DNA of 64,000 bases from Rubrivivax sp. GTDB taxonomy: Bacteria; Pseudomonadota; Gammaproteobacteria; Burkholderiales; Burkholderiaceae_C. A program made the translations under genes and the position numbers. The notes under the pieces were generated by a model that saw only the letters and a list, made by a program, of their open reading frames with translations, searched no databases and was not told the DNA's origin. How positions within the stretch are numbered: position 1 is the stretch's first letter; the number at the start of each line of letters is the position of its first letter. The stretch lies in the NCBI GenBank assembly GCA_022843905.1, contig JALHMT010000009.1, forward strand, positions 1 through 64,000, read 5' to 3'. Positions 28,629-46,774 of this stretch are shown piece by piece.

Positions 28629-29549
28629 TCAGGCGGCAGCGTGCATCGCCTTCAGCGACGTGGCGCGGGCCATCGTGGCGCGGTAGCCGGACTCGATGGC
28701 CCGCTCCCTGAAGTCCCTGGAGAAGCTGACCCAGTAGCCGAAATCGGGGTGCAGCAGCACATCTGACAGCGCGGCGTCGGGCTGGGTGATGGCGCGCTTG
28801 CGCAGGTCGCTTTCGCGGTAGCGCCGGGCCCCCGGCGGCGCGCGATCCTCGTGCGCCGAAGCGTCCACCGCCAGCACGCGCCGGGCGCCCAGCACGCGTG
28901 CCAGGCGCACCGGCAGCGGCATGCGAGCGTCGGCGTCGGCATAACGCTCGCCCCGTATGCGCACCGGCGCGAACTGGCCCTCGATGGCTGCCGAGGCCTG
29001 CACGGCCAGCCCGGTGTCGCCGCGCGTGAAGCCGACCACCTGGCCGTCGCTCATCCGTTGCGCGGCGCAGGCCAGGGCCACGGGCAGCGACTGCAGGCGC
29101 CGGTTCTGCAGTTGCTCGTTGACGAAATCGGCCACGGCGCTGCCCGCGAAGCGCTCGTCGCCGATCGGCTGCCAGCGCAGCAGGGTCCAGGGCTGCAGTT
29201 CCAGGGCCATGCGCTCGATGTCGATGGCCTTCTGACCTGCTGCGCAGAGCGCCCCGACCAGGGCCCCGACCGAGGCGCCGACGATGAGGTCGGGCTGCAG
29301 CTGCAGTTCTTCCAGCGCCTTGATGACGCCCACGTGCACGAAGCCGCGCGGTCCGCCCGAGCCCAGCACCCAGGCCGTGCGCAGCGGTCTCGACAGCGGG
29401 GCGGCTGCAGGGGCGTGTTCGCCGTCGTGGTCGGCGTCGCTGCCCAGGGCACAGCCGGCCAGCCCGGCCGTGCCGAACAGCAGCAGACCGCGGCGCCCTC
29501 GCGACACGATGTCCGGGCCCTTCGCCTCGGCCCGCACCGGCTGCTTCAC
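28629..29549 (-). CDS. Patatin-like phospholipase, predicted Tat lipoprotein
   Basis: 306 residues. The start is GTG 29549, which overlaps the YHS gene stop by 4 nt. The N terminus has SRGRRGLLLFGTAGLAGC: a twin Arg followed by a hydrophobic run and a lipobox ending in Cys33, suggesting Tat export and lipid anchoring. The patatin fold is shown by the glycine-rich oxyanion loop GSGGPRGFVHVG, the nucleophile in GASVGAL (GxSxG) and an acidic block DADARMPLP where the catalytic Asp is expected. Patatins hydrolyse phospholipids or lipid-like esters. It ends a four-gene run (methyltransferase, ATP-grasp, YHS, patatin). Confidence 0.87.
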   Translation of the reverse strand: MKQPVRAEAKGPDIVSRGRRGLLLFGTAGLAGCALGSDADHDGEHAPAAAPLSRPLRTAWVLGSGGPRGFVHVGVIKALEELQLQPDLIVGASVGALVGALCAAGQKAIDIERMALELQPWTLLRWQPIGDERFAGSAVADFVNEQLQNRRLQSLPVALACAAQRMSDGQVVGFTRGDTGLAVQASAAIEGQFAPVRIRGERYADADARMPLPVRLARVLGARRVLAVDASAHEDRAPPGARRYRESDLRKRAITQPDAALSDVLLHPDFGYWVSFSRDFRERAIESGYRATMARATSLKAMHAAA

Positions 29550-30169
29550 GAAGGTTTGCGTGCTGCGGCCTCCTGCACCATGCGCTGCAGCTCGGCATCG
29601 CTCTTGTAGTGCGGCACGCGGAAGATCAGACGCTTGGTGCGTTGCACGAAGCTGTTGCTGCCCGATACCTCGTCGCGCCAGTACTGTTCTGCCTTGGCCA
29701 GGTTGCCCGCACGGTCCAGTTCGAAGGCAGCGCGCGAACCGGCGCCGCCGAAGATGTAGAGCTTGCCGTCGTAGATGCGCCAGACGTCGGCGTTGCCGCC
29801 CCAGGGAATGGCGTAGTTGATGCCGTTGGCGCAGAAGCCACCGTACTGCGGGATGTAGCGCGCCGGCTCGCGGTCGAAGGCCGCCTTGTGCTCGGCGTTC
29901 ATGAAGTGGAAGGTCACGCCCTGGTGCAGGCTCTTGATCTGTGGCGAGCCCTGTGCATGGCGACCCAGGGTGAAGTAGGCCACGACGTCGTGGCCCTCCA
30001 GCATGACGTGGGCATCGTCGCCAATGGCTACCGCCTTCACTGGCTTCAAGGGGCTGGAAGGGTTCTGGGCCAGCATCGCGCCGCAGCCGCTGAGCGCGGC
30101 CAGACCCGGCAGCAGCAGCGCCAGCGCCCACAGGCGCAGCGCAGGGAGGAGTTTCGAGGGCAGTGGCAT
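29546..30169 (-). CDS. YHS domain-containing lipoprotein
   Basis: 207 residues with lipobox LSGC (Cys29) after a long hydrophobic stretch. The mature part has the YHS pattern: HDVVAYFTLGRHAQGSPQI, VTFHFMNAEHKAAFDREPARYIPQYGGFCANG. YHS domains bind metals such as copper in some copper-handling proteins, but this exported form is often seen without a known role. WGGNADVWRIYDGKLYIFGG follows. It starts 4 nt after the ATP-grasp stop and its stop overlaps the patatin start, so the proteins are probably produced together at the cell envelope. Confidence 0.88.
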   Translation of the reverse strand: MPLPSKLLPALRLWALALLLPGLAALSGCGAMLAQNPSSPLKPVKAVAIGDDAHVMLEGHDVVAYFTLGRHAQGSPQIKSLHQGVTFHFMNAEHKAAFDREPARYIPQYGGFCANGINYAIPWGGNADVWRIYDGKLYIFGGAGSRAAFELDRAGNLAKAEQYWRDEVSGSNSFVQRTKRLIFRVPHYKSDAELQRMVQEAAARKPS

Positions 30170-30173
30170 GAGT

Positions 30174-31532
30174 TCAGGCTCCGGAGATCAAGGTGCCCAT
30201 GGCGGCGGGCTCGGCGTCGGCGATCGGACTGCCCAGGCGGTCGGCGTAGGGCGCTGTCCAGCCGAGCAGGGCGCTGGCCCTTTCCGCGCGCTGGCGCAGA
30301 TGGGCTTCGTTGTGGCCGTGCAGGTGCACGATGCCGTAGCGATGGTTGCCCAGCCACTTGAAGTCGCGCTCCAGGGCATGGCCGGACTTGGGGTACATGA
30401 ACAGCAAGGCATCCGGGAAGCGTTTGGCCAGCGCGGCCTGCTGTCCCGGATCGGGCATGGGCGGTGCGTCGCCCGGGCTGAAGCTGCGGTAGACCAGGCT
30501 GGCGGCGGCGCCGGCCACCGGTGCCGTGCGCGGCAGCGCCGCCGGATCCTGCCCCAGCGCCAGGGCGAGCGACATGGCGTGCGGATCCAGGCCCTGCACA
30601 CGGCGGTAGAGGTCAGAGAACTGTGAAGCCAGGCGCGGGTTGAATTCGATGACGGAGAGCCGGCCGCTGGCGGCGTCGTGGAAGAACTCCATGTTGAACA
30701 TGCCCTGGGTGAAGCCCACGGCGGACAGGAAACGCTGGGCGACGTCCAGCGCCTGCTGCTGCACGCCGGCAGGCAGCCGGCTGGGATGTTCCCAACGCAT
30801 GAAGGCCTGGGTGCCGGGGTACATCACCGCGTCGACCACCCCCAGCGCGTGCGCCTGACCGTTGAAGACCCAGCCGTCGAGGTTGTACTGCGCCGCCTGC
30901 AGCGGCTCTTCCAGCATCATGCGGTGGGCGGTGCCGGCCTGCGGCAGGCGCTCGCGCGCGATGCGTTCGAAGGGCTCCACCAGGCGGCGGATGACCCACA
31001 GCTCGCGGCGGCCGAAACGGGTGTGTCGCACCAGTTCCTCGCGGCTGTCCACCCGCCTGGCCAACACCGAGAAGGCCGCCTTCACCGGCTTCACGTAGGC
31101 CGGGAAGTCCAGGCCGTCGGGGATGCTGCCGCCGTATTCGGCGTCGAGGTCGGCAAAGGCGATGCTGGCTTCCGGGCAGACTTCGGCCAGCACGCGGCGC
31201 GCATGCAGCTTGTGCTGGCAGGCCAGGATGGCAGTCACCGGTGTGCCCGGCAGGCCCAGCCGCTCGGCCACCAGCGCGGCGGCCAGGGCGCCGAACTGCT
31301 CGTGATGCGACACCACGCCGGCCCAGCGTTCACGGCGGCCGCGGCGCGCCTGCCGGTCGGCGAAGCGGTTCAGGTCGAAGCCGATCAGCCGAGCATTGCT
31401 GGGGAAGCTGAAGAGGTCGAAGCCGGCCTCGTCGAAGTCGAAGTCGCCCTTGAGCCGGTCGAAGGCCAGGGTGTCCCAGTCGTAGCTGAAGAGCAGCCCG
31501 ACGCGCGGTCGCCGGGCTTCGGTGAAGGTCAT
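30174..31532 (-). CDS. ATP-grasp domain protein, function unknown
   Basis: 452 residues. The N-terminal part (1 to about 105) has LLFSYDWD and SHHEQFGALAAALVAERLGLPG, typical of the pre-ATP-grasp domain. The ATP-grasp fold runs from about 105 to 330: ILACQHKLHARRVL, the phosphate-binding Lys in YVKPVKAAFS, the hinge region MLEEPLQAAQYNLDGWV, and the Mg ligands in NMEFFHD...VIEFNPRLASQ. It should ligate a carboxylate to an amine or thiol using ATP. The substrate is unknown. The start ATG 31532 overlaps the methyltransferase stop by 4 nt, so these two are likely partners. Confidence 0.82.
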   Translation of the reverse strand: MTFTEARRPRVGLLFSYDWDTLAFDRLKGDFDFDEAGFDLFSFPSNARLIGFDLNRFADRQARRGRRERWAGVVSHHEQFGALAAALVAERLGLPGTPVTAILACQHKLHARRVLAEVCPEASIAFADLDAEYGGSIPDGLDFPAYVKPVKAAFSVLARRVDSREELVRHTRFGRRELWVIRRLVEPFERIARERLPQAGTAHRMMLEEPLQAAQYNLDGWVFNGQAHALGVVDAVMYPGTQAFMRWEHPSRLPAGVQQQALDVAQRFLSAVGFTQGMFNMEFFHDAASGRLSVIEFNPRLASQFSDLYRRVQGLDPHAMSLALALGQDPAALPRTAPVAGAAASLVYRSFSPGDAPPMPDPGQQAALAKRFPDALLFMYPKSGHALERDFKWLGNHRYGIVHLHGHNEAHLRQRAERASALLGWTAPYADRLGSPIADAEPAAMGTLISGA

Positions 31533-32167
31533 GGAGGCAAACCCCTGAAGAGGCCGTGGCCGATGTAGCCCATGCCGGCCTGCGTAGGCAACCAGCGGAA
31601 GTCGTCGAGATGCGCCGCCAACAGGCTCCATGGCTGCCAGAGGTCGCCCGCCTTGGCGTTGTAGGGGCGGTTCTTCAGCCAGGCCAGCAGGTTCAGCGGC
31701 CCGGTCCACCAGGGAAAGAACTTCATGCCTGCCAGTGCCACCGGCGCACCGGGCTTCAACTGGCGCAGGACGTTCTGCACCGCTGCCGGCGTGCGGGTGA
31801 TGTCATGCACGTAGTTGAACAGCGCAGCGTCGGCCACTTGCGGCAGCTGCACGGTCTCGGCCGGCTGGTTGACGTGCCAGACGTTCTGCCAGCCGTGGCG
31901 GGACACGCGCTGTCGTGCCAGCTCGAACATCTCGGGGCTCTGTTCGAAGGCCAGCACACGGCCGGTGGAGCCCACCGCCCCCAGGAGCGGCCCATAGCTC
32001 AGGCCCGTGCCGGCGCCGACATCCAGCACCACCTGTCCGACCTGCAAGTCGAGCAGGGCGATGGTTCGCAGTCGCAGCGGCATCGTGCGCTCGGCCGAGC
32101 TGTCGTAGCCGGCCGCGTGGCGCCGGTAACGTTCCATGGAGGCCTGGTTGTCGGGGTGCGCCAGCAA
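31529..32167 (-). CDS. Class I SAM-dependent methyltransferase
   Basis: 212 residues. Motif I is VVLDVGAGTGLSYGPLL, motif II region VLAFEQSPEMFELARQRV, and the post-I block VADAALFNYVHDITRTP. The Rossmann fold covers about residues 45-150, and the C terminus has an aromatic WWTGPLNLLAWLKNRPYN region suited to a lipid or membrane-bound substrate. It is too short and lacks the typical layout for the EgtD histidine methyltransferase. It begins 21 nt after the SMR gene and overlaps the ATP-grasp gene by 4 nt. Confidence 0.87.
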   Translation of the reverse strand: MLAHPDNQASMERYRRHAAGYDSSAERTMPLRLRTIALLDLQVGQVVLDVGAGTGLSYGPLLGAVGSTGRVLAFEQSPEMFELARQRVSRHGWQNVWHVNQPAETVQLPQVADAALFNYVHDITRTPAAVQNVLRQLKPGAPVALAGMKFFPWWTGPLNLLAWLKNRPYNAKAGDLWQPWSLLAAHLDDFRWLPTQAGMGYIGHGLFRGLPP

Positions 32168-32188
32168 GGTCTGTCCGGGGCGGTGCGT

Positions 32189-32536
32189 TCAGGCCGTGGC
32201 GCGCGAGGCCGAATGCAGCCCCATCACGCCGATGACGATCAGGCCGGCGCTGACCATCTTCAGCGCCGTGGCCGGTTCCTTGAAGTACAGATAGCCGATC
32301 AAGGCCGTCAGCACGGTGCCCACGCCCGACCACACGGCGTACACCACGCTCAGCCCCAGGGTCCGGATGATCGCCGTGTTCAGCGCGAACGAGATCGCAT
32401 AGAAGACGAAGATCAGCACCGAGGGTGTCAGCCGGGTGAAGCCTTCGCTCAGCCTCATGCACGTGGTGCCTGCCACTTCGAACAGGATGGCCACGGCCAG
32501 CACCGCCCAGGCCTGGCCGACGTTCAGTACCGGCAT
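32189..32536 (-). CDS. SMR family multidrug efflux protein
   Basis: 115 residues with four hydrophobic helices, the size of EmrE/SugE proteins. The conserved acid is Glu20 in LFEVAGTTCMRLSEGF, and Gly/Tyr-rich helix 3 has ALNTAIIRTLGLSVVYAVWSGVGTVLTALIG. Such proteins exchange protons for cationic compounds, guanidinium or small lipid-like molecules. The position between the selenium-type transporter and the methyltransferase suggests export of a pathway product or by-product, but this is only context. It begins 82 nt after the phnE-like gene. Confidence 0.9.
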   Translation of the reverse strand: MPVLNVGQAWAVLAVAILFEVAGTTCMRLSEGFTRLTPSVLIFVFYAISFALNTAIIRTLGLSVVYAVWSGVGTVLTALIGYLYFKEPATALKMVSAGLIVIGVMGLHSASRATA

Positions 32537-32618
32537 GACCGTGCGATGAGTGGGGCGGTGGATGCCGTCAGGGGGCGCATGGGGCAGGAGGTCGTGACAG
32601 GAACCATATCCTTACACG

Positions 32619-33446
32619 TCATCTCGTCATCCAGCGGCGAGTGCCGTAACTCAATGAATCCACGGCAGCCACCAGCAACAACATGGCGCCGACGATGGTC
32701 GCCGTCTTGCCCATGTGGAACAGCCCCATGTGGAAGGACAGCATCTGCCCCAGGCCGCCGGCGCCGACCACGCCCAGCACGGCCGCGGCGCGGATGTTGT
32801 TCTCCCAGCGGTACAGCGTGTAGCTCATCAACTGCGGCAGCACCTGGGGCAGCGTGGCGTAGAGGAAGATGCGGCCGTTGCCCACGCCTTGTGCGCGAAG
32901 CGCTTCTCCGGGGCCGGGCGGCGCGTTCTCGACGGCCTCGGCGAAGAGCCTGCCCAGCACGCCGGTGGTGTGGAAGGCCAGGGCCAGGGTGCCCGCGAAG
33001 GGCCCGAGGCCGGCGGCGATGAGCAGCAGCGCCGCCCATACCAGTTCAGGAATGGCACGCAGGGCATTCAGCAGCAGCCGAGTCGGCGAGCGCGCGCGGG
33101 CCGGGTCGTCGGCATGCATGCGGCTGGCCGGCAGCGCCAGCGCCAGGCCGGCGGCAGCAGCCAGCAGGGTGCCCAGCGCGGACATCGCCAGCGTCTCCCA
33201 GGTCGCCAGGGCCACACGGCGCAGGAACTCCGGCGAGGTGTCCGGGGGGAAGAACTCCCCGACGAAGCGCCCCATGCTGCGCGCGGCGTCCATCGACAGG
33301 AACTGCGCCCATTGCAGGTCGAGCGACCAGAAGCTGGCCACCACCAGTACCAGCACGGCCGCGCTGAACCAGCAGGCCTTGCAGCGCGCATCGAACAGCG
33401 GCGGCGGCAGCCGGTAGGGTGGGTTGGCGGCGGGCGGCTGCTTCAT
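32619..33446 (-). CDS. Phosphonate/selenate-type ABC permease, second subunit
   Basis: 275 residues, a PhnE-like permease with six or so membrane segments. The cytoplasmic loop with the EAA-like motif reads EALRAQGVGNGRIFLYATLPQVLPQLMSYTLYRWENNIRAAAVLGVVGAGGLG, the hallmark of PhnE proteins. Its start ATG 33446 overlaps the stop of the first permease gene. Together they would form a heteromeric channel with the ATPase at 34347. Substrate assignment depends on the binding protein and the neighbouring sen genes. Confidence 0.9.
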   Translation of the reverse strand: MKQPPAANPPYRLPPPLFDARCKACWFSAAVLVLVVASFWSLDLQWAQFLSMDAARSMGRFVGEFFPPDTSPEFLRRVALATWETLAMSALGTLLAAAAGLALALPASRMHADDPARARSPTRLLLNALRAIPELVWAALLLIAAGLGPFAGTLALAFHTTGVLGRLFAEAVENAPPGPGEALRAQGVGNGRIFLYATLPQVLPQLMSYTLYRWENNIRAAAVLGVVGAGGLGQMLSFHMGLFHMGKTATIVGAMLLLVAAVDSLSYGTRRWMTR

Positions 33447-34303
33447 CCCAGGCCCTTGCGCAGGCCGGCGCTGACGCGGTCGGCCAGTGCCACCAGCGCC
33501 ACGAAGACGGCCAGCATGGTCAGCACCTCGCCCCCGTTGAACATCTTCATGGAGTTGTCGAGCTGCTGGCCGAGCCCACCGGCGCCGACGAAGCCCAGCA
33601 CCACCGAGCTGCGGATGGCGCATTCCCAGCGGTACACGGTGTAGCTGGTCAGCTCGGCCGCGTTCTGCGGCAGCAGGCCGAAGAAGAAGGCCTGCAGGCG
33701 CGAACTGCCGTTGCGCAGCAGCGTCTCGGTGGCATGGACCTCGCCGCTTTCCAGGATCTCGCCGTAGACCTTGCCCAGCATGCCGCCGTAGGTCAGCGCA
33801 ATGGCCAGCACACCGGCGGTGGGGCCCAGGCCGACGACGCGCACGAAGACCAGCGCCCACACCAGTTCGGGCACGCTGCGCAGGCCGATCAAGGTCCAGC
33901 GCACGAGCTGCCGGAACCAGAAGGGGCCTCGAGCCATGCGGCCAGACAAGGCGGAGACGGACAGCACCCGCGTCGACACCAGGGTCAGCGGCAACGCCAA
34001 GGCCAGGGCCAACACCATGCCGGCGGTGGCCATGGCCACCGTGCGCCAGGTCTCGCGCGCCACCATCCACAGGAACTCGCCGGACACCGCCGGCGGCAGG
34101 AAGGTGGCCAGGAAGTCACCCGTGACCTCCAGGTTCTTCGCTTCGAACAGGATCCAGGGTCTGAATTCGGTGGCCACCATCAGCGGCCACATCAGCACCA
34201 GTGCGAAGCTGCCCCAGAAGACCCGGCCCAGCCACGCGGGGTCGCGACTGGGGGCAGGTCGGCGTGCGTGCCCGGGTGGCGGGTGCAGGACGTCGGTGCT
34301 CAA
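33443..34303 (-). CDS. Phosphonate/selenate-type ABC permease, first subunit
   Basis: 286 residues, start TTG 34303, with several membrane segments and the PhnE-type block SSRLQAFFFGLLPQNAAELTSYTVYRWECAIRSSVVLGFVGAGGLGQQLD. The periplasmic region starts EFRPWILFEAKNLEVTGDFLATFLPP. Two different PhnE-like permeases in tandem are usual for the phosphite, phosphonate and putative selenate branches of this transporter class. It follows the ATPase gene after 43 nt and overlaps the second permease by 4 nt. Confidence 0.9.
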   Translation of the reverse strand: MSTDVLHPPPGHARRPAPSRDPAWLGRVFWGSFALVLMWPLMVATEFRPWILFEAKNLEVTGDFLATFLPPAVSGEFLWMVARETWRTVAMATAGMVLALALALPLTLVSTRVLSVSALSGRMARGPFWFRQLVRWTLIGLRSVPELVWALVFVRVVGLGPTAGVLAIALTYGGMLGKVYGEILESGEVHATETLLRNGSSRLQAFFFGLLPQNAAELTSYTVYRWECAIRSSVVLGFVGAGGLGQQLDNSMKMFNGGEVLTMLAVFVALVALADRVSAGLRKGLG

Positions 34304-34346
34304 GGTCTCGTGCTCGGTGCGGGTCTTGCAGGCCGGAGCGGCCGCC

Positions 34347-35183
34347 TCAGCGGCAGTGCATCACCACCGGCGCAGGGCCGGCGGCAGGCGGGGCCTCGGG
34401 CGGCAGCGGCGCATCGCCGCGAAGCTCGTGCTCGTGTTGCGCGTAAAGGCGCTCCAGCCTGTCGCGGCCGACTTGTGCCGCCGGCAGGTCGAACACCAGC
34501 CTGCCGTCACGCAAGCCCACGATGCGCGGGAAGTGCGACAGCGCCATGTCCACCTGATGCAGCGTGGCCACCAGCGTCACGCCGCGTTCCTGCGCCGTGG
34601 CCACCAGCGTGCCCAGCGCTTGGCGCGAGCGCGTGGGATCGAGCGCCGACAGCGGCTCGTCCACCAGCCACAGCCGCGCCGGAGACAACAGTGCCCGCGC
34701 CAGCCCAACCCGCTGGCGCTCGCCTCCGGAGAGGCGATCGACGCGCTCGAAGAGCTTTTCCGACAGGTCGAAGCGTTCCAGCGCCTCGTGTGCGGCCGGG
34801 ATGTCGACCGGATAGAACAGGGAGCGCAGGCTGGTCAGCAGGCCCATGGCGGGCAGTCGGCCGGCCAGCACGGCGGTCACCACACGTTGGCGGGGCGGCA
34901 GCGGGGGCACCTGCGGCGCCAGGAACAGCCGCCCGCGCAGCCGCTGCAGCGTCCGCCGCGGCAGGGACCAGGGCGCCTGTCCCGCCAGCGTCACGGTGCC
35001 CGCAGCAGGGGGCAGGGCGCAGGCCATGATCTGCATCAAGGTGGTCTTGCCGGCACCCGAGGGCCCGATGATGGCCACCTGTTCACCTTCGGCGATGCGA
35101 AGGTCCAGGTCCTGCAGGGCTGCAGCGGCACCTGCGCGTGCCGCAGGGTGGCGCGCAGACAGCGCCTCGAGTTCGATGTTCAC
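34347..35183 (-). CDS. Phosphonate/selenate-type ABC transporter ATP-binding protein
   Basis: 278 residues. Walker A GPSGAGKT at 40-47, signature LSGGERQRVGLARALL, Walker B LWLVDEPLSALDP and a switch His in LVATLHQVDMAL. GRLPAMGLLTSLRSLFYP corresponds to the extra insert of PhnC-type ATPases. The last 35 residues are a Pro/Ala-rich tail. It belongs with the two permeases downstream and the binding protein upstream (25 nt). Confidence 0.9.
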   Translation of the reverse strand: MNIELEALSARHPAARAGAAAALQDLDLRIAEGEQVAIIGPSGAGKTTLMQIMACALPPAAGTVTLAGQAPWSLPRRTLQRLRGRLFLAPQVPPLPPRQRVVTAVLAGRLPAMGLLTSLRSLFYPVDIPAAHEALERFDLSEKLFERVDRLSGGERQRVGLARALLSPARLWLVDEPLSALDPTRSRQALGTLVATAQERGVTLVATLHQVDMALSHFPRIVGLRDGRLVFDLPAAQVGRDRLERLYAQHEHELRGDAPLPPEAPPAAGPAPVVMHCR

Positions 35184-35208
35184 GGGCAGTGTCAGGCCGG
35201 ACCGGGCC

Positions 35209-36075
35209 TCAGATCAGTCCGGCACTGCGGCCCGCGGCCTCCAGCCCCTTGTAGTTCTCGGGCGCAGTCGGGATGTAGCGCGTCGCGCGGTTCAGTTGCA
35301 GGATCTCCTTGCCTTCGGGCGTGGCCGGGTCCAGGTCGAGCAGCGCGCGCTGCACCTTGTTGCGCAGGTCGGCCGGCATGTCGGCGTGCACCGACCAGTT
35401 GTAGTTGAAGAAGGTCGGCGTGGTGAAGAAGACATCGACCGCCTTGGTGTCGACCTTGTTCTCGCCGACGAACTTGCGCCAGACGGTGATGTCGAGCGCG
35501 GCGGCGTCGACCTTGCCGCTGACCACCGAGGCGATGGTGGCGTCGTGTGCGCCGCTGTAGGCCACGCGGCGGAAGTCCTTGTCGGGGTTGATGCCCGCCT
35601 GCAGCAGGAAGTGGCGCGGCATCAGGTGGCCCGAGGTGCTGCTCTGCGAACCGAAGCTGACCTGGCGGCCCTTGAGGTCGCCGAGTGCCTTGATGCCGGA
35701 GTCGGTCTTGGCGATGAACACCGACTGGAAGCGCGTGTCTTCCTCGCGCTGGGCGATCGGGACGATCTTGCCGCCGGAGCGGATCTGCGCCTGCACGAAG
35801 GTGAAGCCACCGAACCACACCAGGTCGACCTTCTTGTTGACCAGGGCTTCGACCGCCGCGGGATAGTCGGTCACCGGCGTGAATTCGACCTTCATGCCCA
35901 GCTTCTTCTCGAGGTAGTTGGCGATGGGCGTGAACTTGCGCACCTGCTCGGTGGCGGCCTCTTCGGGGATGGTGGTGACGCGGAAGACCTGCTGAGCCTG
36001 GGCCCAGCTTCCCGCGGCGAGCAGGGCGGTGCAGAGCAGGGCCTGCAGGGAGCGCATGGGCGAACGGCAGAACAT
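35209..36075 (-). CDS. Periplasmic binding protein, phosphonate/putative selenate family
   Basis: 288 residues with a signal peptide ending near SWAQAQ. It belongs to the PhnD superfamily: IPEEAATEQVRKFTPIANYLEKKLGMKVEFTPVTDYPAAVEALVNKKVDLVWFGGFTFVQAQ is typical, followed by SSTSGHLMPRHFLLQAGI and RVAYSGAHDATIASVVSGKVDAAAL. The wording and spacing match the branch catalogued, as I recall, as putative selenate ABC transporter binding proteins that cluster with selD and the SenB-type glycosyltransferase. That cluster is present next door. The start ATG 36075 has AGGAG about nine bases upstream. Binding of selenate or selenite is inference from context. Confidence 0.83.
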   Translation of the reverse strand: MFCRSPMRSLQALLCTALLAAGSWAQAQQVFRVTTIPEEAATEQVRKFTPIANYLEKKLGMKVEFTPVTDYPAAVEALVNKKVDLVWFGGFTFVQAQIRSGGKIVPIAQREEDTRFQSVFIAKTDSGIKALGDLKGRQVSFGSQSSTSGHLMPRHFLLQAGINPDKDFRRVAYSGAHDATIASVVSGKVDAAALDITVWRKFVGENKVDTKAVDVFFTTPTFFNYNWSVHADMPADLRNKVQRALLDLDPATPEGKEILQLNRATRYIPTAPENYKGLEAAGRSAGLI

Positions 36076-36295
36076 CGGGTGGACTCCTGGGTTGGGCTGG
36101 TGGTGAATTCGGGGGGCGGTCGTTCGTGACGGCCTGTCCTGCACCTTCGCGTTGGTCGGCGAACGTGCTGACATGCCTTACCTGTACGCTGCAGGCGGCC
36201 GATTCCTTCCCCGCGATGTTACGAGACCGGCGCTTGCGACGTGCGGCCCGGGCCCGGGTGGGGCCGGCGACGTTGTCGGGCGGCGCCGCAGAACC

Positions 36296-37516
36296 TTACA
36301 GCGAGCAGCTGCGAAATCCGGCGGGAACGTCGCGCCTGTGCGGCGCAAAGAAGTTCCTGTAGCGGGCATGGCGCATGCGGGGCTGGGTCAGGTGCGATGC
36401 GCCGCGCAGCACCGGCCGGCCGTCGAACCAGGGTGCCGAGTAGTCGCGGTAGGGGTGCGGTCGGAATCCCGGAAAGGGCCGGAACGCGCTGGATGACCAT
36501 TCCCACACGTCGCCCCAGCGAAACCGATCGGGCTGGGCGTGCGCAGCGCACTCCCATTCGGCCTCGTCGGGCAGGCGGCGGCCGGCCCAGTGGCACCAGG
36601 CCAGCGCCTCGTACAGGCTCAGGTGGCTGGCGGCCTCGGCCAGATTCAAGGCTTGCCACTGTCCGTGGTGCCACCGCAGCCACAGCGCTCCGTCGCGGCG
36701 CAGGTACCTCGGAACCCCGTTGCCGGCGGCAGCGCGCCAGCGCCAGCCCGCTTCGGTCCAGTGTCTGCGGTCGTCATGGGCGCCGCTCTCGATGAAGGGC
36801 AGGTACTCGGCCCAGCGCACCGCCTGTGCGTCCATCGAGCACCCCGTCAGCGTCACGTCGTGGGCCTGCAACTCGTTGTCGAACGCGAAGCCCTGGCCGG
36901 GCTCGCTGCCCAGTCGCCAGGGCCGCGCCGGCACCGCCAGGGCCGCCGGGGGGTCGGGCAGCGCTAGGGCCTGCCAGCGCGGGTCGCTCACGGCCAGGCC
37001 CAGGCCTTGCGCCATGTAGAGCGCAGCCTCGTGGTGCATGTCCTCGTGCAGCAGGGCCAGGCGGAAGAAGTACAGGCCCTCGTCGGTGTCGGGCGCTTCG
37101 CGCAGCAGCGCCAGGGTGTCCTGCAACTGCGCCGCCAGATCGCCGCGCGTGGTGTCGGCATCGGGCAGGGGCAGGTGCCAGCGGGAGTCGTGGGGGACGT
37201 GGCTGGAGTCGTACAGCCGGTCTGCCTCGGCGCGTCGGGGCGCCGCGCGGGGGGCTGCCGGGTCGGCGCTGTCGCCCAGGTGGCGCAGCGGGTTGCGGGT
37301 CACCCAGTACTCCTGGAACCAGCCCAGGTGGCCCAGTTCCCACAAGGGCGGGTTGAGTTCGTCGCGTGGCGGCACCGCCAGGGCGGGCAGGCCCGACTCG
37401 AACACGGCGAAGGTGGCCAGGGTGTCCTGCCGGCTGTCGACCAGTGCCTGCGCCAGCCATGCGGCATCTGCGCCGCGGGCCAGGTCGGCCGCTCCGGTTA
37501 GGCTTGCGTCATGCAT
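36296..37516 (-). CDS. senA: Selenoneine synthase SenA (EgtB-like, DinB plus FGE-sulfatase domains)
   Basis: 406 residues. The N-terminal DinB-like domain has iron-ligand candidates in LWELGHLGWFQE and LLHEDMHHEAALYM. The C-terminal formylglycine-enzyme-like domain has SLYEALAWCHWAGRRLPDEAEWECAA and LRGASHLTQPRMRHARYRNFFAPHRRD. This is the architecture of ergothioneine sulfoxide synthase EgtB and of SenA, which joins hercynine to a selenosugar in selenoneine synthesis. Context (SenB and SelD/SenC next to it) favours SenA. The start codon shares ATGCAT (37511-37516) with senB on the other strand. A longer frame upstream would overlap senB and is not used. Confidence 0.85.
   Translation of the reverse strand: MHDASLTGAADLARGADAAWLAQALVDSRQDTLATFAVFESGLPALAVPPRDELNPPLWELGHLGWFQEYWVTRNPLRHLGDSADPAAPRAAPRRAEADRLYDSSHVPHDSRWHLPLPDADTTRGDLAAQLQDTLALLREAPDTDEGLYFFRLALLHEDMHHEAALYMAQGLGLAVSDPRWQALALPDPPAALAVPARPWRLGSEPGQGFAFDNELQAHDVTLTGCSMDAQAVRWAEYLPFIESGAHDDRRHWTEAGWRWRAAAGNGVPRYLRRDGALWLRWHHGQWQALNLAEAASHLSLYEALAWCHWAGRRLPDEAEWECAAHAQPDRFRWGDVWEWSSSAFRPFPGFRPHPYRDYSAPWFDGRPVLRGASHLTQPRMRHARYRNFFAPHRRDVPAGFRSCSL
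37511..37516. other. Shared palindromic start-codon site of senA and senB
   Basis: ATGCAT is its own reverse complement. Read on the plus strand it gives Met-His, the start of SenB; read on the minus strand it gives Met-His, the start of SenA. The two divergent genes overlap by these six bases, so each promoter must lie inside the other gene's coding sequence. Upstream of each ATG is a weak purine site (AGG for senB, GGA for senA). Confidence 0.75.
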
Positions 37517-38515
37517 CGGAAATCCATCGTCATCGTGACGCCGGCGCTGGCAGACGCCAACAACGGCAACTGGCAGACGGCCCGGCGTTGGGCTCGTCTT
37601 CTGCAGGCAGCTTACCGCGTCGGGCTCGTCGGACAGTGGTCCGGCGGCGACGAGGCCTTGATGATCGCCTTGCACGCCCGGCGCTCGGCCGCATCGGTGG
37701 CCGCGTGGAAGGCGGCCCACCCGAGGGCGCCGCTGGTGCTGGTGCTGACCGGCACCGATCTGTACCGCGACATCGACGCCGACCCTGCGGCGCAGCGATC
37801 GCTGGCACTGGCCGACGCCCTGGTGGTGCTGAACCGGCATGGGCCCGAGCGCCTGCCGCCTGATATGCGCCGAAAGTGTCATGTGGTGCTGCAGTCGTGC
37901 ACGGCGCGGCGCACGCTGCCGCGAACGGCGCGGCACCTGCGAGCGCTGATGGTCGGACACCTGCGCGAAGAGAAGGATCCGCGCACCGCCTTCCGGGCGA
38001 TGGGGCGGCTGTCGCATCGGCCGGACATCCTGCTGGACCACGTCGGTGCCGCGCTCGACCCGGTGCTGGGCAGCGAGGCGCAGGCCCTGTCCGTGTCGGC
38101 GCCGAACTATCGCTGGCTGGGTGCCTTGCCGCACGCCCAGACCCGCCGCCGTATCCAGGCGGCCCATCTGCTGGTGCATCCCAGCCGCATGGAGGGCGGG
38201 GCGCACGTGGTCATCGAGGCCGTGCGCAGCGGCACGCCGGTGCTGGCTTCGCGCATCGACGGCAACACGGGACTGCTCGGCGACGACTGGCCGGGCCTGT
38301 TCGCACCAGGTGACGATGCGGGCCTGGCCCGCCTGCTCGTGCAGGCGCGCGACGATCCCGATATGCTGCCGGCCTTGCAGAGCCGTCTGGCCGCACTGGC
38401 GCCCCTCTTTTCGCCCCGGGAAGAGGGCGCCGCGCTGCACCGCATCGTGGCCGCCCTTCTGCATTCCACCCCCGCGGGCCGCATCGACCCGCCACACCCT
38501 GGAGACAGACCATGA
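37511..38515 (+). CDS. senB: Selenosugar synthase SenB (TIGR04348-type glycosyltransferase)
   Basis: 334 residues, a GT-B family glycosyltransferase. The N terminus IVIVTPALADANNGNWQTARRWARLL is a strong family signature. LTGTDLYRDID, ALMVGHLREEKDPRTAF and the donor-binding block HPSRMEGGAHVVIEAVRSGTPVLASRIDGNTGLLG follow. Characterised SenB makes a seleno-GlcNAc from UDP-GlcNAc and selenophosphate. It sits between senA (divergent) and the selD-like gene, whose start it overlaps by 4 nt (ATGA), so selenophosphate supply and use are coupled. Confidence 0.86.
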   Translation: MHRKSIVIVTPALADANNGNWQTARRWARLLQAAYRVGLVGQWSGGDEALMIALHARRSAASVAAWKAAHPRAPLVLVLTGTDLYRDIDADPAAQRSLALADALVVLNRHGPERLPPDMRRKCHVVLQSCTARRTLPRTARHLRALMVGHLREEKDPRTAFRAMGRLSHRPDILLDHVGAALDPVLGSEAQALSVSAPNYRWLGALPHAQTRRRIQAAHLLVHPSRMEGGAHVVIEAVRSGTPVLASRIDGNTGLLGDDWPGLFAPGDDAGLARLLVQARDDPDMLPALQSRLAALAPLFSPREEGAALHRIVAALLHSTPAGRIDPPHPGDRP

Positions 38516-39570
38516 ATGCCCCCGAACAGCTCGCCGAACCCCGCCTGACCTCGCTTTCGCACGGCGGGGGCTGTGGCTGCAAGATCGCTCCGGGCGTGCT
38601 GTCGGAGATCCTCAAGGGCACGGCGGCCATGCCCATCCCGAAGGAACTGCTGGTGGGCATCGAGACGGCCGACGACGCTGCCGTCTACCAGCTCAACGAC
38701 GAGCAGGCGCTGATCGCCACCACCGACTTCTTCATGCCCATCGTCGACGATCCGCTCGACTTCGGACGCATCGCCGCCACCAACGCCATCAGCGATGTCT
38801 ATGCGATGGGCGGAAGGCCGATCCTGGCCCTGGCGCTGGTGGGCATGCCGATCAACGTGCTGTCGACGCAGACCATCGGCCGCATCCTGGAAGGCGGTGC
38901 CTCGGTGTGCCGCACGGCCGGCATCCCGATCGCCGGCGGCCATACCATCGATTCCGTCGAAGCCATCTACGGCCTGGTGGCGCTCGGCCTGGTGCATCCG
39001 AAGCACGTCAAGCGCAACGCCGACGCGCAGCCCGGCGACGTGCTGGTGCTGGGCAAGCCGGTGGGCGTGGGGGTGATGTCGGCGGCTCTGAAGAAGGGCG
39101 AGCTGGGCGACGAAGGTTATGCCCGCATGATCGCCACCACCACGCGCCTGAACACCCCCGGCCCCGATCTGGCAGCACTGCCGGGTGTGCATGCCCTGAC
39201 GGACGTCACCGGCTTCGGTCTGGCCGGCCATGCGCTGGAGATGGCGCGCGGCGCGCGCTGCGAAGTTCAGCTGGACTGGGCCACCGTGCCACTGCTGGCG
39301 GATGTCCGCAGGCTGGCCTCGCAGGGCTTCGTGACGGGGGCGTCGGGACGCAACTGGGCCGGTTATGGTCACGACATCGCGCTGCCCGCCGCGTTCGATC
39401 CGGTCGACAAGGCCCTGCTGACCGACCCCCAGACCAGCGGCGGCCTGCTGGTGGCCTGTGCGCCGGGCGAGGTCGACGCAGTGCTCGGCATCTTCCGCCG
39501 CCACGGCTTCGACGAAGCGGCCGTGGTGGGCCGGGTGGCGGCCGGCGCGCCGGGCCTGGTGGTGCGCTGA
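38512..39570 (+). CDS. selD: Selenide, water dikinase (SelD/SenC)
   Basis: 352 residues. The N-terminal GGGCGCK carries catalytic Cys21 and Lys24; there is Cys, not selenocysteine, at the first position. Further ATP-binding family blocks are DDAAVYQ, TTDFFMPIVDDPLDFGRIAATNAISDVYAMGG and ALTDVTGFGLAGHALEM. The enzyme makes selenophosphate from selenide and ATP. The stop and start overlap with senB and the senA neighbour favour use for selenoneine, so SenC is an alternative name; it may also serve selenouridine or selenocysteine pathways elsewhere in the genome. No selA, selB or selenouridine synthase gene is in the window. Confidence 0.93.
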   Translation: MNAPEQLAEPRLTSLSHGGGCGCKIAPGVLSEILKGTAAMPIPKELLVGIETADDAAVYQLNDEQALIATTDFFMPIVDDPLDFGRIAATNAISDVYAMGGRPILALALVGMPINVLSTQTIGRILEGGASVCRTAGIPIAGGHTIDSVEAIYGLVALGLVHPKHVKRNADAQPGDVLVLGKPVGVGVMSAALKKGELGDEGYARMIATTTRLNTPGPDLAALPGVHALTDVTGFGLAGHALEMARGARCEVQLDWATVPLLADVRRLASQGFVTGASGRNWAGYGHDIALPAAFDPVDKALLTDPQTSGGLLVACAPGEVDAVLGIFRRHGFDEAAVVGRVAAGAPGLVVR

Positions 39571-39798
39571 GCCCCTGGCGCAGCGCGCGGCCGCAGCCGG
39601 CACGGGGCCGGTCCGTTCAACGCCGACAGCAGGCCTTGCCTCATGCGGAGGGACTGTCTGCAGGCGGGTTGAGACGCATCAACGAGCCGGCAGATTGGCC
39701 TCTGGCGCAGGGAACCAGCCTGGGCCAGCATGACTCTTCACCGTTCGATGGCCGGCCGGCACATGGGGTGTCGGGTTCGGGCCTTTTCGGGGGACAGC

Positions 39799-40227
39799 AT
39801 GCACACCATTTCTTCCATGTCGCTGGCCGAGGCGCCTGCGCGAGCGCTGGCAGCAGTCGTCGCTGCCAACGGCCACATCAACGACTCCGAACTCGACAGG
39901 CTGGCGCAGCTGGATGCCTTCCGCCGGCTCGGAGTGACGCGCGAACGCTTCGTCGCACTGGCCCGCGAGTGCGTGGACGCCATGGGTGCCGCGCTGTGCG
40001 AACAGAGCTGGCTGCGCGCCGAGCAGCGCATCTACCTCGACCAGTTGCTGGAATCGGTCGATTCACGCGAGCAACGCCTGCTGGTGTGCCGGCTGGCCGC
40101 CGCGGTGATCACCGCCGACGGCTGCGTGACCCAGGACGAACGCCTGGTCTACGACCATGCCCGCGCGCGCTGGCACATCAGCCAGGACATGATCACCCAG
40201 GCGATCCTTCAGGAGCGCGTGAACTGA
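39799..40227 (+). CDS. TerB-like helical protein
   Basis: 142 residues with the chosen start ATG 39799 (MHTISSMSLAEA); an upstream ATG at 39730 adds 23 residues. The protein is all helical and acidic: NGHINDSELDRLAQLDAF, LRAEQRIYLDQLLESVDSREQRLLVCRLAAAVITADGCVTQDERLVYDHA. The twice-repeated layout with D/E-rich loops (ADGCVTQDE) resembles TerB/tellurite-resistance-like domains that bind metal or act as scaffolds. No partner is visible. It lies 228 nt after selD with no terminator in between, so it might follow in the same transcript. Confidence 0.7.
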   Translation: MHTISSMSLAEAPARALAAVVAANGHINDSELDRLAQLDAFRRLGVTRERFVALARECVDAMGAALCEQSWLRAEQRIYLDQLLESVDSREQRLLVCRLAAAVITADGCVTQDERLVYDHARARWHISQDMITQAILQERVN

Positions 40228-40380
40228 TGGGGGAGCTGCAGCCGTCGGTGCCGCGGTGACCTCGGCGCCGACGCCAGGGGGCCGCCGCCGGCGCCTTAAC
40301 ATGCGGGGCCCGGTCCGCCTGCGGCGCGACATCCGTCGCGTCCGCCACGGCGCCGTCCGGCCCGATGCAAGAGTCCTGCC

Positions 40381-41394
<1,014 letters not shown>

Positions 41395-41463
41395 TGACGC
41401 CGTGGCGGCATCGAGGTGACTGGCCCCGGCGCCGTGCGTCGGGGCAATGGATGAGGTAGTGCC

Positions 41464-42542
<1,079 letters not shown>

Positions 42543-42546
<4 letters not shown>

Positions 42547-43187
42547 GTGACGAACCCGCGCTCCGCGAGGCCGCCGTGGCCGCGATGCGCCGCCTCGACG
42601 AGCGCGGCCTGAACCGCGGCAGTGCCGGCAACCTGAGCTGCCGGCTTGGCGAGGGCATGCTCATCACGCCCACCGGCATGGGCGCCGAGTTGCGTGCCGA
42701 CGACATGGTGTGGATGGGCTTCGACGGCCAGGTGCAGGGGCATTGGCAGCCGTCGTCGGAATGGCACTTCCATCGCGCCGTCTACCTCGCCAGGCCCGAC
42801 CTGAACGCCGTCGTGCACACGCACTCGGTGCACGCCACCACGCTGGCCTGCCTGCGCCGGGAACTGCCGGCCTTCCACTACATGGTGGCGGTGGCCGGTG
42901 GCAGCCGTGTGCCCCTGGTCCCGTACCACACCTTCGGCACCGAAGCGCTGTCGCAGGCGGTGGCCGAAGGTCTGCGCGAGGTGCAGGCCTGCCTGCTGGC
43001 CAACCACGGCCTGGTGGCCGCCGGCAAGTCGCTGGGGCAGGCGATGAAGATCACCGTGGAGATCGAGGCCCTTTGCGAGAGCTACCTGAAGGCACTGGCC
43101 GTCGGCGAACCGGTGCTGCTGAGCCAGGCGCAGATGGCCGAGGTGATCGAGAAGTTCCGCAGCTACGGGCAGACGGCGCGGCGCTGA
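42543..43187 (+). CDS. Class II aldolase, probable 5-(methylthio)ribulose-1-phosphate aldolase
   Basis: 214 residues of the FucA/RhaD/AraD-type class II aldolase family. RGSAGNLSCRLGEGMLITPTGM binds the phosphate; SSEWHFH carries the catalytic Glu; VHTHSVHATTLACL and LLANHGL contain Zn-binding His. In DHAP-shunt organisms such an aldolase (Ald2) next to mtnA cleaves 5-methylthioribulose-1-phosphate or 5-deoxyribulose-1-phosphate into DHAP and an aldehyde. The alternative, MtnB dehydratase, is less likely because the SSEW signature is that of aldolases. Confidence 0.82.
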
Positions 43188-43230
43188 ACGAGGCTGCGGC
43201 TGCGTGAAGCGGCTGCATGAAGCGGCCGCG

Positions 43231-44148
43231 TCAGGCGGCCGCGTCGCGGTCGGGCCAGGTGGCCAGCAGCAAGCCTGCCAGCGCCAGCGCGAAGGCCACG
43301 GCATGCGCCGACGTGAAGGTCTCGCCGAGCACCCAGACGCCGATCATCGCCGCCGTCACGGGCAGCAGCACCATGAAGACGCCGGCCTGCGCGGCGGGCA
43401 CCTCCTGCAGGCCGCGCATCCACAGCCACACGGTGACCATGCTGGCGGCCAGGGCGTAGAAGACCAGCAGACCCCAGGTCGGCGGCGTGACGGTGCCGAA
43501 GTCGAAGCTCCAGGCCTGCCACAGGCCCAAGGGCGTCACCAGCGCCAGCCCCCAGAGGTTGATGAGTGCACTGATGCGGCGCGGGGATACGTTGCCGGTG
43601 AGCTTCTTGCCGATCACCACGTAGCAGGCCTCGCAGGCCACCGCGCCCAGCAGCAGCAGATAGCCCCAGGGCGACTCGGCGTCATCGCTGGCGGCCGAGC
43701 CACTGCGCGCCCAGGCCAGGATGGCGATGCCGGTGACCGCCAGCACGATGGCCACGCGCACCCGTGGGCGAATTCGTTCGCCCAGCACCCACCACGAGCC
43801 CAGGGCCACCGCCGCCGGGATGGCCGCCATGGTCACCCCGGCGGCCAGGGCCGACGTCATCTTCACGCCGTACAGCATGCAGATCGAGAACAGGAAGTTG
43901 CCCAGGAAACTTTCCCAGAACAGCAGTCTGCGGTCGCGCGCCGACAGGGCCGCCTCGCCGGGCGCGCGACGCACCCAGTGCGCCATGGCCACCGCGGCGA
44001 TGCCGAAGCGCATCCAGGCCAGCAGGAACACCGGCAGCGCCGCCACCAGCAGCTTGGACAGGCCCACGTAGCTGCCCACCAGGGCCACGCTGGCGGCCAG
44101 GCACAGGTAGGCGGTGACGGGGGCCGCGGCGCGGGAAAGGGAAGTCAA
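43231..44148 (-). CDS. EamA/DMT family transporter, polyamine locus
   Basis: 305 residues with ten predicted membrane helices in two halves. Typical features are VSVSLVGSYVGLSKLLV-like first helix (here ASVALVGSYVGLSKLLVAAL), FLLAWMRFGIAA, and NFLFSICMLYGVKMTSA. The second half holds VMLLPVTAAMIGVWVLGETF. It would export amino acids or related compounds. It is the last minus-strand gene of the polyamine block, 15 nt after the glutamine-synthetase-like gene. A link to GABA, glutamate or gamma-glutamyl compounds is inference only. Confidence 0.83.
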   Translation of the reverse strand: MTSLSRAAAPVTAYLCLAASVALVGSYVGLSKLLVAALPVFLLAWMRFGIAAVAMAHWVRRAPGEAALSARDRRLLFWESFLGNFLFSICMLYGVKMTSALAAGVTMAAIPAAVALGSWWVLGERIRPRVRVAIVLAVTGIAILAWARSGSAASDDAESPWGYLLLLGAVACEACYVVIGKKLTGNVSPRRISALINLWGLALVTPLGLWQAWSFDFGTVTPPTWGLLVFYALAASMVTVWLWMRGLQEVPAAQAGVFMVLLPVTAAMIGVWVLGETFTSAHAVAFALALAGLLLATWPDRDAAA

Positions 44149-44163
44149 GGCGGCAGCGCGGAG

Positions 44164-45497
44164 CTAGAAGGCGGCGGCATAGCGCTCGAGTTCCCAGGCG
44201 CTGACGTGGCGTGCATAGGCCAGTGCCTCGTCGCGCTTGAGGCGCAGGAACTGCTTCGACAGCGTGTCACCCAGCGCGGCGCAGACGGTCTCGTCGGCCT
44301 CCAGGGCGTCGCAGGCCTGGTCCAGGCTTTGCGGCAACAGCGGGATGCCGCGTCCGCGGATCTGCGGCAGGCTCAGCTCGAAGAGATCGTCGGCGGTGGC
44401 CGGGCCCGGGTCGAGGCCGCGTTCGATGCCGTCCAGACCAGCGGCGATCAAGGCCGCAGTGGCCAGGTAAGGGTTGGCGCTGGCGTCGGGCACGCGCCAC
44501 TCGAAGCGGCCCGGCAGCGAGCGCAGCATGGCCGTGCGGTTGTTGCGGCCGTGGGCCACGTAGGCGGGCGCCCAGCTGGTGCCCGACAGCGATTCGCCCA
44601 CCACCAGCCGCTTGTAGCTGTTGACCGTGGGCGCTGCCAGGACCGTGAGGGCGCCGCTGTGCGCCAGCACGCCGGCCATGAACTGGCGCCCGAGCGTGGA
44701 CAAGGGCAGGTCGGACGCTGCGCCCTCGGCATCGGGCTCGAACAGGCAGCGTTCGCCCTGCCACAGCGACACATGGAAGTGCAGCCCGCTGCCCGGCTGG
44801 TCGGCAAAAGGCTTGGGCATCATCGAGAACACGGCGCCTTGTTGCTCGGCCAGGTGGTGCGCGGCCAGCTTGAAGAGCATGACGTGGTCGCAGCTGGCCA
44901 GTGCCTCGTCGAAGGCGAAGTTCAGCTCGTACTGGCCCTGGGCGTCTTCGTGGTCGATCTGCAGCACGGTCAGGCCCGCTGCCTCCAGGGCACCGCGCAG
45001 CGCCTGCAGGAAGGGCATCTGGCGCGGCAGCGACTTGAGGTCGTAGGACGGCTTGTGCAGGCGGTCGGCGTCGTCGGCCGGCAGCCAGCGGTGGCCGCTC
45101 TGCTTGAGCAGGAAGAACTCGGGTTCGATGCCGGTCTTCAGCGTCCAGCCCCGCGCCGCCAGCCTTGCCACGGCGCGCCGGAGCACCTGGCGCGGGCAGG
45201 CGTCGAAGGCCCGGCCGTCGACAAAGCCGTCGCCGACGATGCGCGCCACGCCCGGCATCCAGGGCAGGGGCTGGAGGGTGGTGGCATCGCCCCGGGCGTA
45301 ATACTCGCTGCGGGGCCCGGTGCGCGGCAGCCCGGTGCCCCAGATCGACGGGCCTGCGAACCCGGCACCGGCGGCCAGCACCTCGCCGAGTTGCGCCAGC
45401 GGCACCAGCTTGCCCTTGGCCACGCCGTGCAGGTCGGTGAACTGCACCAGCAGCGTGTGGACGCCGCCGGCCTGCAGGCTCTGCAGGGTCTCGGCGC

Positions 45498-45501
<4 letters not shown>
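44164..45501 (-). CDS. Glutamine-synthetase-like ligase, type III (GlnT-like)
   Basis: 445 residues. The N terminus has VHTLLVQFTDLHGVAKGKLVPLAQL, the beta-grasp domain of the GS fold. The catalytic domain has IEPEFFLLKQ, QIDHEDAQGQYELNF, PGSGLHFHVSLW and VPDASANPYLATAALIAAG. It resembles the type III glutamate-ammonia ligases that cluster with amine-use genes rather than the biosynthetic GlnA. It could ligate glutamate to an amine such as a polyamine or methylamine. The start is GTG 45501, overlapping the gabT stop by 4 nt. No adenylylation Tyr loop is evident. This is the second such enzyme in the block; PuuA is at 55399. Confidence 0.83.

Positions 45502-46774
<1,273 letters not shown>

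Follow-up and report, generated by a model that had tools for sequence, protein, structure and literature searches.

Where does a bacterium that carries a locus for selenoneine, a selenium-containing antioxidant, obtain its selenium? We address this question for the senABC locus of Rubrivivax sp. (Gammaproteobacteria; Burkholderiales), which lies in a stretch of 64,000 nucleotides (positions 1 to 64,000 of contig JALHMT010000009.1, assembly GCA_022843905.1; contig C9 here) that we call the window. Downstream of senA we find the genes of a four-component ATP-binding cassette (ABC) importer, and it is likely that the selenoneine locus is coupled to selenium uptake. The initial annotation of this DNA described senABC only, extending from 36296 to 39570; the three genes do lie together at these positions, but the adjoining importer (32619-36075) was overlooked. 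The sen genes are already a known kind and the selenoneine pathway is known; to our knowledge, no dedicated bacterial selenium importer has yet been proven. The importer of the window and its relatives provide a named candidate for this function, with selenite as the suggested substrate. The features of the locus are as follows.

36296 to 37516, minus strand: senA, selenoneine synthase, an EgtB-like non-haem iron enzyme of 406 amino acids
37511 to 38515, plus strand: senB, selenosugar synthase (Se-glycosyltransferase), 334 amino acids
38512 to 39570, plus strand: selD/senC, Cys-type selenophosphate synthetase, 352 amino acids
37511 to 37516: ATGCAT, a palindrome common to the divergent start codons of senA and senB
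36076 to 36295: 220 bp separating senA from the importer genes, occupied by egtD in many relatives and without egtD in the window
35209 to 36075, minus strand: substrate-binding protein, 288 amino acids from the start used by the gene calls (TIGR04553, 364.9 bits, cut-off 250)
34347 to 35183, minus strand: PhnC-like ATPase (TIGR02315, 189.4 bits, under the cut-off of 266.1)
33443 to 34303, minus strand: first PhnE-like permease (TIGR01097, 190.9 bits, under the cut-off of 216.7)
32619 to 33446, minus strand: second PhnE-like permease (TIGR01097, 267 bits, over the cut-off of 216.7), overlapping the first by 4 nt

The importer genes are tightly packed, are encoded on the strand of senA and begin 220 bp after its end. 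Since the ATPase scores under the TIGR02315 cut-off, it is given a family assignment only. In the pathway that we infer from these genes, including the direction of transport, the importer would bring in selenium as an inorganic oxyanion, most probably as selenite (HSeO3-), which cellular reductants would convert to selenide. SelD would make selenophosphate, SenB would place the selenium onto a UDP-sugar to give a selenosugar, and SenA, an iron enzyme, would join this selenosugar to hercynine, supplied by EgtD from other loci, to yield selenoneine. The same SelD would very likely also feed SelU for tRNA 2-selenouridine. Judged from the gene content, the sen genes almost certainly make selenoneine, the importer probably takes up inorganic selenium, and the chances that selenite is its substrate are about even.

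A genomic tie between the importer and SelD/SenB is found in two genome samples, one that covers the class evenly (369 genomes) and one from the family (120 genomes). TIGR04553 is matched over its cut-off in 15 of the 369 class genomes, all 15 of which encode SelD, compared with 87 of 369 overall (Fisher 1.4e-10); outside the window's family, SelD is present in 12 of 12 importer genomes (1.1e-8). Seven genomes have a TIGR04553 match (E <= 1e-60) under the cut-off, and SelD is found in none of them, a result that is not significant alone (p 0.21). None of the seven under-cut-off binding proteins is accompanied by an ATPase and permeases detectable by the same queries. Among 101 related binding-protein genes, an ATPase and at least two permease stretches lie within 5 kb in 85, an ATPase and one such stretch in six, an ATPase alone in three, and none of these in seven, where the available sequence in some cases ends. 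No binding protein was confirmed on viral contigs.

The family sample adds the tie to senB. The importer is encoded in 57 of the 120 genomes, 55 of them with SelD, and in 38 of the 44 SenB genomes (p 6e-11); sen loci were taken from the Rubrivivax genome itself, G107 and 40 others (G405 and G389 were left out). Of the 57 genomes, 30 have it at most 10 kb from senB, 39 at most that far from selD and 40 from either gene, where about 0.6 would be expected by chance. In importer genomes that lack senB it is found within 4 kb of selD in 10 of 19, and selU is alongside in six of the eight selD-importer loci examined. The importer therefore tracks selenium use generally, and not selenoneine alone.

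The fold of the window's binding protein is closest to that of PhnD1 (7s6g, 5lq5 and 5lq8), with which it shares an oxyanion pocket. All 101 importer-family binding proteins in the pocket alignment, from which seven others were left out (stops or short matches), have Y44, S124, T125, S126, H156 and Y204 without exception. Picocyanobacterial PhnD1 was crystallised as a phosphite binder, from strains without known phosphite-use genes, and is published as a binder of phosphite, phosphate and methylphosphonate. It binds phosphite at 0.05-4.3 uM and phosphate at least tenfold more weakly; its authors conclude that a ligand would have to present three trigonally arranged oxygens, and a tyrosine cap in PhnD1 and PtxB makes the fourth position sterically unfavourable for bulkier groups. 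PhnD1 falls inside TIGR04553 (337 and 302 bits) and, in a tree of 67 of 111 rows, forms a 100/98 group with ten binding proteins from genomes that encode SelD. We propose that the TIGR04553/PhnD1 class may consist of dedicated high-affinity bacterial selenite importers, with phosphite binding by the family being incidental. Selenite would then be the real substrate of picocyanobacterial PhnD1: HSeO3-, like phosphite, is a trigonal monoanion, and cyanobacteria of this group have selD and selU and mostly no known phosphite-use genes. No paper treating PhnD1 together with selenite was present in the literature library searched.

Three positions around the ligand, 11, 174 and 203, switch jointly: they read D-N-D in 62 binding proteins, E-D-N in 37 (the window included) and otherwise in two, and PhnD1 has D, N and D where the window protein has E, D and N. 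Among 49 aligned family-sample genomes, listed by hand, senB is present in 13 of 14 with E-D-N versus 21 of 35 with D-N-D (p 0.04), an association that relatedness may explain. Taken jointly, the selenite reading of PhnD1 and a coupled D-N-D to E-D-N switch that marks the window's sub-branch could as easily prove wrong as right. The locus links a candidate selenium importer to proteins crystallised under another function, and if the PhnD1 class does import selenite, there would be consequences for marine selenium and phosphorus cycling.

The sen genes could instead make selenoneine beside an ordinary phosphite, phosphate or phosphonate importer that is there by chance, an explanation that we consider unlikely. 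The fold and pocket agree with those of phosphite and phosphonate binders, and PhnD1, captured by the same TIGR04553 model, binds phosphite at the concentrations given above. Speaking against chance proximity are the presence of SelD in every importer genome of the class sample and in none of those with the weaker homologues, and the repeated adjacency of the importer to selDs, senBs or selD-selU pairs. If the importer does serve selenium, it may carry selenate and not selenite, as the NCBIfam name of TIGR04553 implies (putative selenate ABC transporter substrate-binding protein, a name also borne by several close relatives). By analogy with PhnD1, this seems more doubtful still: the tyrosine cap would disfavour a bulkier fourth group, and phosphate, tetrahedral like selenate, is the weaker PhnD1 ligand. 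We therefore argue for selenite where the family label has selenate, and additionally connect the family with senAB and place PhnD1 within it.

Several observations weigh against selenium uptake by this importer, or against the strength of the tie. The pocket residues are identical in the seven weaker homologues from genomes without SelD; they thus indicate an oxyanion site and not selenium specificity, for which we rejected them as proof. Among solved structures, the closest relatives are binders of phosphite, phosphate and methylphosphonate. Two importer genomes of the family lack SelD, in assemblies that are 85% and 76% complete, and co-occurrence of importer and SelD in that sample is weak (p 0.01) because 106 of the 120 genomes have SelD. 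In 17 of the 57 family genomes the importer is farther than 10 kb from both selD and senB. It is not found over the cut-off in 72 of the 87 SelD genomes of the class sample, so that it cannot be the only selenium route. All p-values are inflated by the relatedness of the genomes, and the source assembly (7.43 Mb in 186 contigs) has a contamination of 5.06%.

Selenite is known to enter Escherichia coli partly via phosphate transporters (PMC8981825), whereas no clear selenium importer emerged when five candidate transporters of a methanogen were deleted (PMC11097638). A study from 2016 (PMC5029168) listed, as an unexplained candidate, an ABC ATPase encoded close to orphan selD genes. YedE is a predicted selenium transporter (PMC5322559); like the importer it is a candidate from genome context, but it is a membrane protein of another family. 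In Limnohabitans sp. T6-20 (L209), the gene of a YedE-like Sulf_transp protein (PF04143) lies about 1.4 kb away from senB, and the importer queries gave no match in the 21 kb of this locus covered; the protein is perhaps an alternative selenium transporter.

We then consider the sen genes themselves. SenB scores 433.8 bits with TIGR04348 (cut-off 300) and has the solved relatives 8jjn, 8fbx and 8k5u (about 340 bits for the first two), and SelD scores 528.4 bits with NF002098 (cut-off 299), in agreement with the family calls of the initial annotation. SelD contains the motif GGGCGCK, which presumably includes its catalytic Cys and Lys. The same SenA, SenB and SelD/SenC families make up the senABC cluster for selenoneine in Variovorax paradoxus (Kayrouz et al., 2022, cited by PMC10891094). 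The residues N20, T23, K158 and E231 (in EGGAHV) found important in V. paradoxus SenB (PMC10891094) align with N20, T23, K155 and E228 of the window protein. In the window, an importer adjoins the locus, egtD is outside it and SelD is the sole copy over the cut-off.

The genes senA (minus strand) and senB (plus strand) are head to head, and senB overlaps selD by 4 nt (ATGA at 38512-38515), as previously noted. The divergent arrangement is usual in the family, being found in 113 of the 114 loci counted, with extrapolated first residues of SenA and SenB at most 20 bp apart in 62 loci, 21-100 bp apart in 45 and farther apart in six (these counts, and those for the 87 loci below, include seven duplicate loci). 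As there is no intergenic room for promoters between the two genes, these must be very compact or inside coding sequence. A consensus scan of 35900-39900 gave no sigma-70-like promoter and no terminator, and an Rfam scan of 29000-46000 gave no match. This lack of a promoter match and of intergenic room would fit sen genes that are decayed or silent in the strain. We regard that as very improbable: the three frames are open across their whole profile matches, SenB retains its catalytic residues, divergent starts that nearly overlap are typical of relatives, and consensus promoter scans are weak evidence in sequence of 69% GC.

The identity of SenA is supported by profiles, solved relatives and phylogeny, and the earlier family call stands. 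It scores 497.8 bits with NF041186 (cut-off 420) and 215.6 bits with the EgtB model TIGR03440, whose cut-off of 360 is not reached; its best solved relatives are the SenA structures 8ryz and 8k5i (387 bits), versus 135 bits for EgtB (4x8b) and 132 bits for OvsA (8ux5). In a tree of 65 of the 115 rows collected, the window protein falls in a 99/96 group with 8ryz and the sen-locus SenAs of the family, with OvsA outside, while three EgtBs of the same genome cluster apart, at 100/100, with an EgtB-like row from G476. On these scores and placements, we rejected EgtB and OvsA as identities of the protein. The tree does not contain the SenA paralogue described below, L232 or L228, and L234 is a fragment. 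Overall, the sen-locus SenAs do not form one side of a branch, and OvsA and its kin are placed among distant class-level SenAs, with deep joins made unsure by long branches. The motifs WELGH and HEDMH of the window SenA align with WELGH and HEAMH of 8ryz, and we take their histidines to be the iron-binding histidines of the EgtB superfamily. The Rubrivivax genome also encodes a SenA-like paralogue on contig C76 (L066:3466-4740; NF041186 288.6 bits, under the cut-off), in which HEDMH reads HEDRL; it looks like a SenA relative with one iron ligand lost.

OvsA, of the ovoselenol pathway, belongs to the same enzyme superfamily as SenA and uses a selenosugar. Least probable of all is that the product of the locus is ovoselenol or another selenometabolite. 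In favour of this reading, OvsA is placed near the remoter sen-locus SenAs in the tree, either pathway could be served by SenB and SelD alone, and SenA over the cut-off is absent from 4 of the 15 senB genomes that were searched. Against it, the window SenA is separated from OvsA by both score and tree group, and egtD, the hercynine maker, is a frequent neighbour in relatives. The four genomes with SenB and no SenA over the cut-off are G476, G425, G404 and G389, whose selenosugar may feed another product. SenA is encoded elsewhere in the genome in 9 of 12 genomes without an adjacent senA. One contig region (G218:C4:76968-95133) carries senB, two selD genes, a SenA over the cut-off, an OvsA-like protein and the importer; in the tree this SenA branches near OvsA (88/87) and the OvsA-like protein joins 8ux5 at 100/100. 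This is perhaps a combined selenoneine and ovoselenol region.

The initial annotation found no egtD in the window and suggested that hercynine comes from elsewhere or is imported. The EgtD profile indeed has no match on contig C9, but the assembly encodes four EgtDs elsewhere, all over the TIGR03438 cut-off, and supply of hercynine by import alone was rejected on this ground. Two of their contigs, C93 and C51, are close to the window in tetranucleotide composition (r 0.989 and 0.979); the other two, C157 and C56, are less similar (r 0.80 and 0.88, GC 0.58 and 0.60) and are possible contaminants. Three of the four EgtDs are encoded beside an EgtB that passes its own cut-off, so ergothioneine is probably also made. 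In relatives, an EgtD-like gene, 56% identical to the EgtD of C93, occupies the gap in 28 of the 32 loci in which the binding-protein gene is 2.7-8 kb from senB with senA between them. Of the 87 loci where senA is adjacent and the upstream sequence reaches 6.5 kb or more, 33 have an EgtD-like gene within 6 kb and 49 the binding protein within 10 kb. Rubrivivax pictus (L150), a culturable relative, carries sen genes, the importer and a local egtD together.

As for its selenium economy, the Rubrivivax genome encodes one SelD over the cut-off and one SelU, and SelA had no match (SelB and tRNA-Sec were not searched there), so selenoprotein use was set aside. From this gene content, a SelD dedicated to selenoneine was also rejected, and the enzyme probably serves both selenoneine and SelU-dependent tRNA 2-selenouridine. 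Unlike the stand-alone SelD of the window, SelD is part of an open frame of about 760 amino acids in many genomes (G311, G236, G121, G410, G481 and others), with several of these selD genes beside senB.

Other genes flank the locus. Downstream of selD is a weak TerB-like gene (39730-40227, plus strand; PF05099, under the cut-off) without a match in other sen loci. Following the importer, on the minus strand (31529-32536), are a UbiE/ArsM-like methyltransferase and an EmrE-like small multidrug resistance (SMR) exporter, found in 9 and 7 of 143 sen loci, respectively (one duplicate pair in each); the SMR gene adjoins senA in L112, and selenium methylation and export is a possible function. The minus strand at 29546-31709 encodes an ATP-grasp ligase and a YHS-like protein, with sub-threshold matches to PF13535 and PF04945, respectively. 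The ligase recurs in 16 of the 143 sen loci, one duplicate pair among them, with both orientations and several families represented, and the two proteins are a possible tailoring pair.

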